Positions 6,283 to 10,797 of a DNA stretch of 64,000 nucleotides are shown here, piece by piece. The first letter of the stretch is position 1. The number at the start of each line of letters is the position of its first letter. Source of the DNA: an uncultured Sulfurovum sp. (GTDB lineage: Bacteria; Campylobacterota; Campylobacteria; Campylobacterales; Sulfurovaceae). The stretch lies in NCBI GenBank assembly GCA_902727895.1, contig CACVAP010000074.1, positions 1 to 64,000 on the forward strand, read 5' to 3'. Position numbers and translations under genes: made by a program. The notes under the pieces are model-generated. The model searched no databases. It was not told the DNA's origin and was given only the letters and a program-made list of their open reading frames with translations.

Positions 6283-6939
6283 ATGACTTATAAATTTTTA
6301 CTTATTTTTACACTTTCTTTCTCACTACTAACAGCTACTGACTTTAAAGACATAAACCCAGCACCCAACAAAACAATGTTAGAAAATCAAAGCCATGCTA
6401 AAGACTGTACATCACCTGCACCTGCAAATGAAGATATATCTGAAAGTTTTAAATATGGATGCTTTTGTGGAGAAGACTACCCAAAGATGGATGCAAACGA
6501 AAGTAAAGACTTTAGAAGACTGCGTAAAAAGGAAAGAATAAAAGTTATAGAATCTTACTTTCTTGTAAAACCCTATGATGACATAGACGCAGTCTGTATG
6601 CAACATGACATTTGCTATCTTTACCGTGGTAAAAAAGCCAGAACTTGTAACCGTGCCATCTACAGTGAATTACGTGATTTAAGACATCAATTTAAAACAG
6701 AAAATGAACCAAAAAAAGATGAACAATGTTCACACCTAGCGACAGATATAGCTTCTGTTTTTCAAACTATCTTTGCTTCATCAGATGATAAAACAGGTTT
6801 TTTTGAATTTGGTTCCTTACTTTTTAATACTACACTGACCATCGCTGAAAAAACACTGGAAGAGTCCATAGACACCATTATAGATCAAGGGAAACGCTAC
6901 CCTAAAAAAGATGAAAAGTGCATCGTTAGTAAGATTTAG
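6283..6939 (+). CDS. Secreted phospholipase-A2-like protein
   Basis: 218 aa with an N-terminal signal peptide (cleavage near residue 18). Residues 58-63 read YGCFCG, like the calcium loop of secretory phospholipase A2. Residues 97-112 read PYDDIDAVCMQHDICY, matching the PLA2 active-site helix pattern P-D-D-C-HD-CY with catalytic His108 and Asp109. A further Cys (122) follows in the second helix region. A roughly 30-residue insertion separates loop and helix, and the second Gly of the calcium loop is replaced (GED). If active, it would hydrolyse the sn-2 acyl ester of phospholipids, in the periplasm or outside. Preceded by TGTTATACT at 6250-6258. The family call is by motif only. Confidence 0.65.
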   Translation: MTYKFLLIFTLSFSLLTATDFKDINPAPNKTMLENQSHAKDCTSPAPANEDISESFKYGCFCGEDYPKMDANESKDFRRLRKKERIKVIESYFLVKPYDDIDAVCMQHDICYLYRGKKARTCNRAIYSELRDLRHQFKTENEPKKDEQCSHLATDIASVFQTIFASSDDKTGFFEFGSLLFNTTLTIAEKTLEESIDTIIDQGKRYPKKDEKCIVSKI

Positions 6940-8180: not shown

Positions 8181-8861
8181 ATGGATAAACAAACAGATAT
8201 AAAACTAACCTATACTCAAAAATTTAAGAACAGAACCATGCAAGGGCTTTTTTGGATTTTACCCATTGCAGCCATACTCATGATAATTTTTTGGCTCTAC
8301 GAAAAGATTGACCTTATTGTCACTACCTTTTTAGATTTTATAGGTATTAACCCTCAGAACAATGAATTTTTATGGGTAGTTGGGGTTGTTGCTGTTTTTA
8401 TACTCATTTTATATCTTATTGGATACCTCATCAAAACACAAATTGCTTTTTATGTTGAATCCCTTTTTCATGACATTCCTGGTTTTTCAACTATTAAAGA
8501 CATTATTGGAATCTTTAACTCATCTAAAGAAGGAGACAACAAAGTCCTAGTCGTTGCCATACGAGGCTTTGCAAATGAAGGTTATAACATTGGGCTTATG
8601 TATTCTCAAAAAGAGAGCATCATAAAAGACCACTACACTGTTACCCTTTCCATGACTCCTATTCCAAACGGTGGGTACATGTTTGAAGTCCACAAAGACA
8701 ATATATTTATAATAGAACACGCAACCTTTGATGACAACTTACAATACCTACTCTCGATGGGTGTTAAAAGTATTGCTGAGGTATTAAAAGTTAAACCAAA
8801 AAGTCTTGATGAAATGCAAAGTTTAAATGAGTGGTTAGCAGGAAAATCAAAAGAAAATTAA
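8181..8861 (+). CDS. DUF502 family membrane protein
   Basis: 226 aa. Two membrane helices in the first half (about residues 20-42 and 62-85) are followed by a soluble domain with DIPGFSTIKDIIGIF and SMTPIPNGGYMFEV, characteristic of DUF502. The biochemical role is unknown. It follows the DUF819 gene closely in the same direction. Confidence 0.8.
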   Translation: MDKQTDIKLTYTQKFKNRTMQGLFWILPIAAILMIIFWLYEKIDLIVTTFLDFIGINPQNNEFLWVVGVVAVFILILYLIGYLIKTQIAFYVESLFHDIPGFSTIKDIIGIFNSSKEGDNKVLVVAIRGFANEGYNIGLMYSQKESIIKDHYTVTLSMTPIPNGGYMFEVHKDNIFIIEHATFDDNLQYLLSMGVKSIAEVLKVKPKSLDEMQSLNEWLAGKSKEN

Positions 8862-8936
8862 TTTCTGTGTCCACTACACGTTTTCTATACATAAGCTATT
8901 GTAATATACCTACATCAAAATAACTAAAGGACAAAC

Positions 8937-9419
8937 ATGAAGAAAATCACCATTCTATTAGCTTTACTACTTACTACATTTACCTTACTTAACGCAGCAG
9001 AGGCTGAAGTTAAAACATTTCCCGTTATAAGTGAAGAAGGCATGAAAAAATGTGCTACAAAAAGCGCTGATTCTAACGGTACAACTAAAAAATGTGACAG
9101 AAAAAAAGGTGTTGATTCTAATTGCACAACCAAAAAATGTGACAAAAAAATGAATGCAGATTCTAATTGTACAACTAAAAAATGTGATAAAAAAATGAAT
9201 GCAGATTCTAATTGTACAACCAAAAAATGTGATAAAAAGAAATGTACTGATACTAACTGTAAAGTTGAAAAATGTGATGGTACAAAATGTGTAACTCCAA
9301 AAGCAAGCAAGTGTGGAGAAGGTAAATGTGGTGGCGATAAAAACGCTTCAACTAAATGTGGTTCAGACAAACCTAAAGCTGAAAGCAAATGTGGTGAAGG
9401 TAAGTGTGGAGGAAAGTAA
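8937..9419 (+). CDS. Secreted Cys-rich tandem-repeat protein with CGEGKCGG motifs
   Basis: 160 aa. A clean Sec signal peptide (to about residue 20, LLNAAEA) is followed by four 15-residue repeats of the type ADSNCTTKKCDKKMN and a C-terminal part with two copies of CGEGKCGG. About one residue in seven of the mature protein is Cys, often followed by Gly or Asp. EGKCGG motifs are characteristic of HvfA-type precursors, in which Cys residues are modified by HvfB/HvfC to bind copper. No hvfB (DUF692/MNIO) or hvfC (DUF2063) gene is in this window. It could instead be an unmodified metal-binding periplasmic protein. Monocistronic by position. Confidence 0.65.
   Translation: MKKITILLALLLTTFTLLNAAEAEVKTFPVISEEGMKKCATKSADSNGTTKKCDRKKGVDSNCTTKKCDKKMNADSNCTTKKCDKKMNADSNCTTKKCDKKKCTDTNCKVEKCDGTKCVTPKASKCGEGKCGGDKNASTKCGSDKPKAESKCGEGKCGGK
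9066..9245 (+). repeat. Four 45-base in-frame tandem repeats
   Basis: Units begin at 9066, 9111, 9156 and 9201. Each encodes about x-DSN-x-TTKKC-D-KK. Units 2-4 differ at only a few bases, so they expanded recently and copy number is likely to vary among strains. A decayed fifth unit (TDTNCKVEKCD) follows. Confidence 0.85.
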
Positions 9420-9582: not shown

Positions 9583-10797
9583 ATGATAAACGCACTTAGA
9601 GGAATGAAAGACTTAACTTTTGAAGAGAGTGAAAGATTTGTGCATATTGTTAATACAGCAACAAAAGTAGCTACTAGATATGGATACAACTACATAGAAA
9701 CACCTATACTTGAAGAGACAAAACTGTTTAAACGCTCTGTGGGTGAAAGTTCTGATATTGTCGGTAAAGAAATGTATCAGTTTATGGACAAAGGTGACAA
9801 TGACGTTTGTATGCGTCCAGAAGGAACTGCTGGCGTGGTGCGTTCTTTTGTTCAAGCTAAACTTGACAGACGGATGAATGAAAAATTTAAATTTTACTAC
9901 TATGGACCAATGTTTCGTTATGAGCGTCCTCAAAAAGGGCGTTTAAGAGAATTTCACCAGTTTGGTTGTGAAAGTTTTGGCGAAGGCTCTGTGTATGAAG
10001 ACTTTAGTATTATCTCTATGGTTGGAGACATTTTTAAAGAGCTTGGCATTGGTTATGACCTTGAGATTAACTCTCTTGGTTGTCCTGAGTGTATGCCTCC
10101 TTACCGTGAGAAACTTATTGATTTTTTGACAGAATGTAAAGATGAACTTTGTGAAGACTGTAACCGAAGAATAGACACAAACCCTATTCGTGTACTTGAC
10201 TGTAAAAATGAAAAATGTCAAACACTTTTAAAAGACTCACCAAAGCTTATGACCAACCTTTGTAACACTTGTGACACAGACTTTAAAAAACTAACGCAAC
10301 TTTTAGATGATGCAAACATTGGCTATAAAGTTGACACGCATTTAGTAAGAGGTTTAGACTACTACTCGAAAACTGCTTTTGAATTTGTTTCTAACAACAT
10401 TGGTTCTCAATCTGCCATTGCAGGTGGTGGACGTTATGACAAACTCGTAGAATTTTTAGATGGTAAACCTACGCCTGCTGTTGGGTTTGCTCTTGGGATT
10501 GAGCGTATTATGGAACTGGTTCAAATGCCAGAGACCCAGCGTGAAGGTTACTATATTGGGGCTATGGATGAAGAAGCCATTGACTCTTTGTTTCCTTTAG
10601 CTTCTAAAAAAAGAATGACTGACAAAGTGACTGTTGAGTATGCTCCTAAAAAGCTCAAAGCACACCTTAAAAATGCCGACAAAGCCAATGCACGTTACTG
10701 TGCTGTTATCGGTGAAGATGAGTTTAAATCTGCCACTATTTGGGTTAAAGACTTAGTGAAAAAAGAAGAAAAAACTGTTTTACAAAGTGAGCTTTAA
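9583..10797 (+). CDS. hisS: Histidyl-tRNA synthetase
   Basis: Class II synthetase of 404 aa that charges tRNA-His in the cytosol. Seen: N-terminal RGMKDLTFEE, motif 2 region FYYYGPMFRYERPQKGRLRE, the HisA loop GLDYYSKTAFEF, motif 3 GFALGIERIMEL, and a C-terminal anticodon-binding region. The central insertion is rich in CxxC pairs (CPEC, CEDC, CNTC), suggesting a bound metal in this lineage. The start at ATG 9583 has GGAA upstream. It is preceded by its own promoter and followed by a separate gene. Confidence 0.95.
   Translation: MINALRGMKDLTFEESERFVHIVNTATKVATRYGYNYIETPILEETKLFKRSVGESSDIVGKEMYQFMDKGDNDVCMRPEGTAGVVRSFVQAKLDRRMNEKFKFYYYGPMFRYERPQKGRLREFHQFGCESFGEGSVYEDFSIISMVGDIFKELGIGYDLEINSLGCPECMPPYREKLIDFLTECKDELCEDCNRRIDTNPIRVLDCKNEKCQTLLKDSPKLMTNLCNTCDTDFKKLTQLLDDANIGYKVDTHLVRGLDYYSKTAFEFVSNNIGSQSAIAGGGRYDKLVEFLDGKPTPAVGFALGIERIMELVQMPETQREGYYIGAMDEEAIDSLFPLASKKRMTDKVTVEYAPKKLKAHLKNADKANARYCAVIGEDEFKSATIWVKDLVKKEEKTVLQSEL

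Follow-up and report, generated by a model that had tools for sequence, protein, structure and literature searches.

Background

The closest described systems are the oxazolin, Buf_EGKCG or captophorin Lys-Cys precursors, such as HvfA and FonA, which combine a signal peptide with Lys-Cys pentads and a KCGEGKCGG tail in a repeat-built sequence of low complexity. Peptides of this kind bind copper and, as a rule, are modified by an enzyme of their own, MNIO. Bacterial metallothioneins, a second group suited to comparison, are rich in cysteines that are clustered in CxC and CxxC motifs. In the available part of PMC13419390, the oxazolin-type modification is reassigned to 5-thiooxazole. Lys-Cys repeats of five residues form one precursor category in the accessible text of PMC13097082, so pentads as such are already known.

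We followed up one gene in a window of 64,000 nucleotides, the whole stretch of DNA presented here, from an uncultured Sulfurovum sp. (Table 1). Judged from its sequence, the product is a real, fast-evolving, predicted-exported cysteine array whose tail is related to oxazolin precursors. All the traits listed above for HvfA and FonA are found in it. In contrast to them, it has a repeat period of 15 residues instead of the published 17, and no MNIO or DUF2063 partner was found in its genome or genus; by this enzyme test, it is not a member of the oxazolin precursors. As in bacterial metallothioneins, the protein is Cys-rich, its repeat part has no aromatic residues and its apoprotein is predicted to be disordered. 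Unlike them, it is predicted to be exported, is rich in Lys and lacks His, and its cysteines mostly recur every 5 or 10 residues: the smallest Cys-to-Cys step is 5, and CxC or CxxC clusters are absent.

Table 1. Features of the window and of two further KCG loci in the same genome (G000)
Feature	Position	Strand	Evidence
DUF502 membrane protein, upstream neighbour, syntenic anchor	8181..8861	+	Pfam PF04367
Shine-Dalgarno-like AAAGGA	8926..8931	+	Sequence comparison
Cys/Lys-rich protein gene, 160 aa, predicted export	8937..9419	+	ORF list, composition, orthologs at same place
Predicted signal peptide, about residues 1-20/21, LLNA-AEAE	8937..8999	+	Sequence; sole AlphaFold2 helix, residues 3-23
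Four 45-bp units, 15 aa (three pentads) each, DSNCTTKKCDKKMNA type	9069..9248	+	Tandem Repeats Finder, pairwise comparison
Unbroken run of Cys at every fifth residue (Cys 98, 103, 108, 113, 118)	9228..9290	+	Step analysis
First KCGEGKCGGD motif	9309..9338	+	Sequence; NF050137 match G000:C74:9309-9374
Second KCGEGKCGGK motif, C-terminus	9387..9416	+	Sequence; NF050137 best stretch, residues 140-159
hisS, downstream neighbour	9583..10797	+	TIGR00442
Short HvfA-like peptide gene, then DoxX	L012:9308-10101 (G000 contig C46)		Pfam run on C46 DoxX
KCG-cytochrome c fusion	L019:6543-7244 (G000 contig C20)		Pfam Cytochrom_C confirmed

A cysteine-rich gene upstream of hisS

The gene is real. It is a single open frame with an ATG start, and the AT-rich region 5' of its AAAGGA is kept in an orthologous locus (L118). 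An opposing minus-strand frame (8924-9388) was rejected as a gene: it starts with TTG and mirrors the repeats. A terminator scan found none at the locus, and four of the promoter-like matches on the minus strand come back with each repeat unit.

The protein has 17 Cys and 36 Lys; all of the Cys lie in the 139 residues past residue 21, which include a single Phe and, like the protein as a whole, no Tyr, Trp or His. The signal peptide proposed by the sequence-only reading is borne out by a hydrophobic N-terminus ending in LLNA-A and by the only helix of the structure model. No Pfam family matched at E<=1, and no related solved structure was found (a single match at E 0.29). An AlphaFold2 model, built from three sequences only, has a mean pLDDT of 37.7 and predicts disorder past the signal helix, with no fold. 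It lends no support to a beta-helix of the kind published for EGKCG, though with three sequences this is a weak negative.

Upstream of the gene lie ApbE, a phospholipase-A2-like protein, DUF819 and DUF502. None of these, nor hisS downstream, is a modification enzyme, as had been stated from the sequence; the surroundings are housekeeping genes, not metal genes. The phospholipase-A2-like gene (6283-6939) encodes a secreted protein with a CMQHDICY motif and a weak match to PF00068 (24.6 bits for a cut-off of 32.1), and genes resembling it occupy the corresponding position in L017 and L018.

At the DUF502 locus, the gene occurs only in the window genome and in two further uncultured Sulfurovum sp., HLG_WM_MAG_04 (L118) and HLG_WM_MAG_03 (L119), where it lies after DUF502, towards hisS. 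A search with the DUF502 protein yielded 35 named loci, two of which hold the gene; within the genus, DUF502 matched in 12 of 34 genomes, three of them with the gene. These three orthologs are all that are known, and each comes from a metagenome-assembled genome. The gene is dispensable, since a close relative (L126, HLG_WM_MAG_02) keeps the order DUF819-DUF502-hisS at the same locus without it. Over 37 aligned N-terminal codons, the window and L118 genes differ four, zero and six times at codon positions 1, 2 and 3. When a profile of the three proteins was run over 150 family genomes, 16 were matched at E<=0.01, mainly through KCG-type tails and with some weak or spurious hits. One of the matches (L157, G025) is a similar Cys/Lys protein encoded at a different place, adjoining a gene for a DsbD_2-type membrane protein.

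Repeats and cysteine spacing

Tandem Repeats Finder describes the repeats as period 45, with 3.8 copies and 88% matches; the unit limits are 9069-9113, 9114-9158, 9159-9203 and 9204-9248. Between units 2 and 3, 42 of 45 bases are identical and the three differences are synonymous, while the remaining five pairs agree at 34-37 of 45, and unit 1 has Gly where units 2-4 have Cys. The description of four almost identical units was therefore overstated, as it applies to units 2 and 3 only. Of the recent expansion inferred from it, one fairly young duplication is left, that of the near-identical units 2 and 3; the others are older.

The steps from one Cys to the next are 14, 10, 5, 10, 5, 10, 5, 5, 5, 5, 5, 8, 5, 10, 11 and 5. 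Thirteen of these 16 are divisible by five, a number never reached when the mature sequence was shuffled 20000 times. The same holds for 7 of 8 steps in the L118 protein (reached in 1 of 20000 shuffles) and for 11 of 14 in that of L119 (0 of 20000). These tests show a Cys register beyond composition; because the shuffles take no account of the repeat origin of the protein, they speak to composition and not to selection. The orthologs vary in length, motif and repeat number, yet all retain the five-residue register.

The KCG tail and its models

Both CGEGKCGG motifs reported from the sequence are present, at residues 126-133 and 152-159. The resemblance to HvfA noted there holds for this tail: the NCBIfam domain KCGExKCG_twice (NF050137) scores 25.7 bits and passes its cut-off of 19.5. 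The HvfA equivalog NF050188 is failed (16.7 bits for a cut-off of 95); this model is strict, as the short KCG peptides that we scanned fail it too. The orthologs depart further from HvfA and FonA, L119 having no EGKCG-type motif and L118 only KCGASKCGG. The gene had also been called an orphan, which is true with respect to enzymes nearby; however, the same genome encodes two further KCG proteins, one adjoining DoxX (C46) and one joined to cytochrome c (C20).

Searches for modifying enzymes

The sequence-only reading had allowed for modification in trans, by DUF692/MNIO and DUF2063 proteins encoded elsewhere. A genome-wide search for MNIO (PF05114) gave no match in the window genome, nor in any of the genus genomes (0 of 34, the window genome included), 13 of which combine a completeness of 90% or more with a contamination of 5% or less. 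A second profile, built from 16 Campylobacterota MNIO proteins, returned nothing in the 34 genomes at E<=1. With both profiles empty, an MNIO elsewhere in the window genome was rejected. The positive control of the second profile was limited to fetched loci; that of PF05114 was the phylum search, in which 27 of 397 genomes matched, 25 above the cut-off and one of the 27 belonging to the same family. The window genome has no DUF2063, and a profile of DUF2063 partners gave no credible match over the genus. A divergent partner protein was likewise rejected, the only hits being two poor fragments at E 0.09 (with two internal stops) and E 0.32. Modification in trans is unsupported because both genome-wide searches were negative: neither the window genome nor the relatives sampled seem to have the dedicated enzyme. 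The genomic part of what the sequence-only reading had named as counting against the RiPP idea, a genome with neither a DUF692 nor a DUF2063 gene, was thus observed.

The residue following each cysteine gives a second view of the substrate. In 12 MNIO-adjacent precursors, Gly follows Cys in 91 of 91 cases (all Cys past residue 22 being counted), in a sample picked by the KCG motif, which itself favours Cys-Gly. In the window protein, this applies to 5 of 17 Cys, all in the tail. Unlike in oxazolin precursors, the other 12 stand in stretches devoid of Cys-Gly, the repeat part (0 of 12), where six are followed by Asp or Lys. The orthologs have Gly after 2 of 9 (L118) and 0 of 15 (L119) Cys. According to the available text of PMC13097082, FonBC left substrates with a charged residue after Cys unprocessed. 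Short KCG peptides from genomes with no enzyme have Cys-Gly at 44 of 47 Cys in the same genus (10 proteins, leaving out the near-identical L035) and at 76 of 82 in other genera (11 proteins, selected for being short peptides).

KCG genes with and without MNIO

In the genus, NF050137 matches 19 of the 34 genomes at E<=0.1 (16 above the cut-off); in the phylum, it does so in 52 of 397 at E<=0.01 (46 above the cut-off). Above the cut-offs, which leaves out two MNIO matches (G205, G234) and six KCG carriers (G264, G306, G307, G328, G400, G413), 19 phylum genomes have motif and MNIO, 27 the motif alone and 6 MNIO alone. The association between motif and MNIO is real (Fisher odds ratio 40, among genomes that are not independent). 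More than half of the KCG carriers of the phylum (27 of 46) are nevertheless without MNIO. Table 3 of PMC12452194 gives 67 of 2583 genomes for Buf_EGKCG genes without MNIO, a figure not directly comparable with ours because models and samples differ; in the part available, its authors describe enzyme-less precursors as rare and leave their role open. Our literature search found no paper on KCG proteins in Campylobacterota, and the accessible part of a study of metal stress in Nitratiruptor (PMC10092412) does not mention cysteine-rich proteins, DoxX, metallothionein or DUF692.

Among 29 loci fetched from the phylum (L077-L105), MNIO and its partner adjoin the KCG gene in 12; among 29 from the genus (L020-L048, where some entries are one gene counted twice), they do so in none. 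At seven distinct loci of the genus (C46 of the window genome, L023, L024, L032, L035, L036 and L044), a short KCG peptide gene adjoins DoxX, present in one or two copies. MNIO and partner are missing from these loci, whereas MNIO-bearing relatives have both between peptide and DoxX. The C46 DoxX also matches DoxD.

In four genomes of the genus, the gene for a KCG lipoprotein adjoins those for Gluconate_2-dh3 and a GMC oxidoreductase (families Pfam-tested on L013, assigned by sequence likeness on L014, L015 and L030). The KCG gene of L014 also adjoins a gene of the metallo-beta-lactamase fold (PF12706). Similar sets stand beside KCG genes in genomes without MNIO at L081, L085, L089 and L097; here, Gluconate_2-dh3 was confirmed for L085 and L089 and is putative for L081, the L097 protein had no family match, and the GMC genes were judged by the start of their sequences.

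In 14 distinct genes fetched from the genus, among them L021, L033 and L028, a KCG module is joined to a cytochrome c recognised by its CxxCH motif. Two layouts occur: a lipoprotein start followed by a KCGEGKCGG motif, helical Ala/Lys/Glu repeats and cytochrome c, or cytochrome c first and then a KCGxGKCGGK tail. The available part of PMC12452194 describes a comparable fusion of cytochrome c with a bufferin domain (Buf1|Cytochrom_C); the module in the genus, unlike that one, is of the EGKCG type, for which a figure legend in that source names EF-hand fusions only.

In other genera without MNIO, the KCG gene lies directly 3' of a Cu-type P-type ATPase at L083 (13 bases apart) and L087 (frames overlapping as called), and after CusA/CzcA and YceI at L077, L094 and L100 (YceI tested on L077 only); the transporter genes at these loci are truncated by the locus ends. 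Such neighbours speak for a role in metal handling among KCG proteins that have no enzyme, without demonstrating one for the window gene. A separate stretch, L150:10658-12596, contains frames full of a regularly spaced FQYIICCWF peptide and is probably a CRISPR array read through.

Possible functions of the window protein

As the dedicated enzyme is seemingly missing, the protein probably binds metal or sulfur through plain cysteines. We lean towards an unmodified, Sec-exported, largely disordered Cys/Lys-rich buffer for a thiophilic metal. The protein would be exported by Sec to the periplasm or surface, and its cysteines would stay unmodified. Spaced every 5 or 10 residues, they would hold the metal, most likely Cu(I), as ordinary thiolates; gain and loss of repeats may tune the number of binding sites. 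Of the two alternatives raised earlier, RiPP metallophore precursor or unmodified metal buffer, the latter is the better. Arguing for it are the absence of MNIO and DUF2063, the Cys register, the repeat part without Cys-Gly, the charge rule of FonBC, the transporters beside KCG genes elsewhere and the modelled disorder. Against it count the housekeeping neighbourhood, the small number of orthologs and the dispensability of the gene; so do a structure model from three sequences and a genome that is 96.2% complete with 4% contamination. Furthermore, the Cys-Gly kept in enzyme-less short KCG peptides is not explained by an unmodified role alone.

Alternatively, the protein may serve as a thiol-redox or sulfane-sulfur carrier whose cysteines pass on disulfides or persulfides in the periplasm of a sulfur oxidiser; DoxX, cytochrome c and flavin dehydrogenases would be the partners of its family. 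The seven DoxX loci (with the additional DoxD match), the cytochrome c fusions and the lipoproteins beside Gluconate_2-dh3 and GMC genes all point this way. We nonetheless think it unlikely here: the window gene has no such neighbours, the transporters in other genera suggest metal and, to our knowledge, C-x4-C is not a usual redox motif.

The gene might also be a relic in decay, once a RiPP precursor, that has lost its enzymes and now drifts by repeat slippage. Its patchy presence, the L119 protein with no EGKCG motif and the Cys missing from unit 1 are consistent with decay; but units 2 and 3 differ by synonymous changes only, the Cys register persists through large changes in length, and the N-terminal differences from L118 avoid codon position 2, which makes a relic rather improbable. 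We give slightly less credit to a RiPP precursor whose modifying enzyme is not an MNIO, or is one so divergent that it escapes recognition. The 93-94% Cys-Gly of enzyme-less short KCG peptides looks as if it were still being read, and the DoxX, Gluconate_2-dh3 and GMC neighbourhood recurs without MNIO. However, Cys-Gly is absent from the repeats of the window protein, its gene has no enzyme-like neighbour, and two different MNIO profiles are empty in 34 genomes. Finally, an MNIO/DUF2063 pair in an unassembled part of the genome might modify the protein in trans, as a classical oxazolin (5-thiooxazole) precursor. This would fit the match of the tail to the KCGExKCG model and the KCG genes right before MNIO in MNIO-bearing relatives, but is very improbable with no MNIO in any genus genome, the 13 good ones included.

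Implications for KCG proteins

Preferring an unmodified buffer for the window protein, we may also hypothesize, tentatively and with less confidence, that across much of Campylobacterota the EGKCG cysteine module has become independent of MNIO chemistry. It would then be a portable envelope module, unmodified or differently modified, that appears as free-standing pentad arrays (the window protein being one), as DoxX-linked peptides, as GMC-linked lipoproteins and as cytochrome c fusions, possibly with an as yet unknown maturation enzyme where Cys-Gly is kept.

The wider point of interest is a clade that has the module but seems to lack the enzyme. The NCBIfam description of KCGExKCG proteins is that of modified RiPP metallophores; should entire genera have them without the enzyme, this name misleads for those proteins. 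If this is true, enzyme-less KCG proteins would provide a natural control for what 5-thiooxazole contributes: similar peptide scaffolds could be compared that differ in this chemistry.
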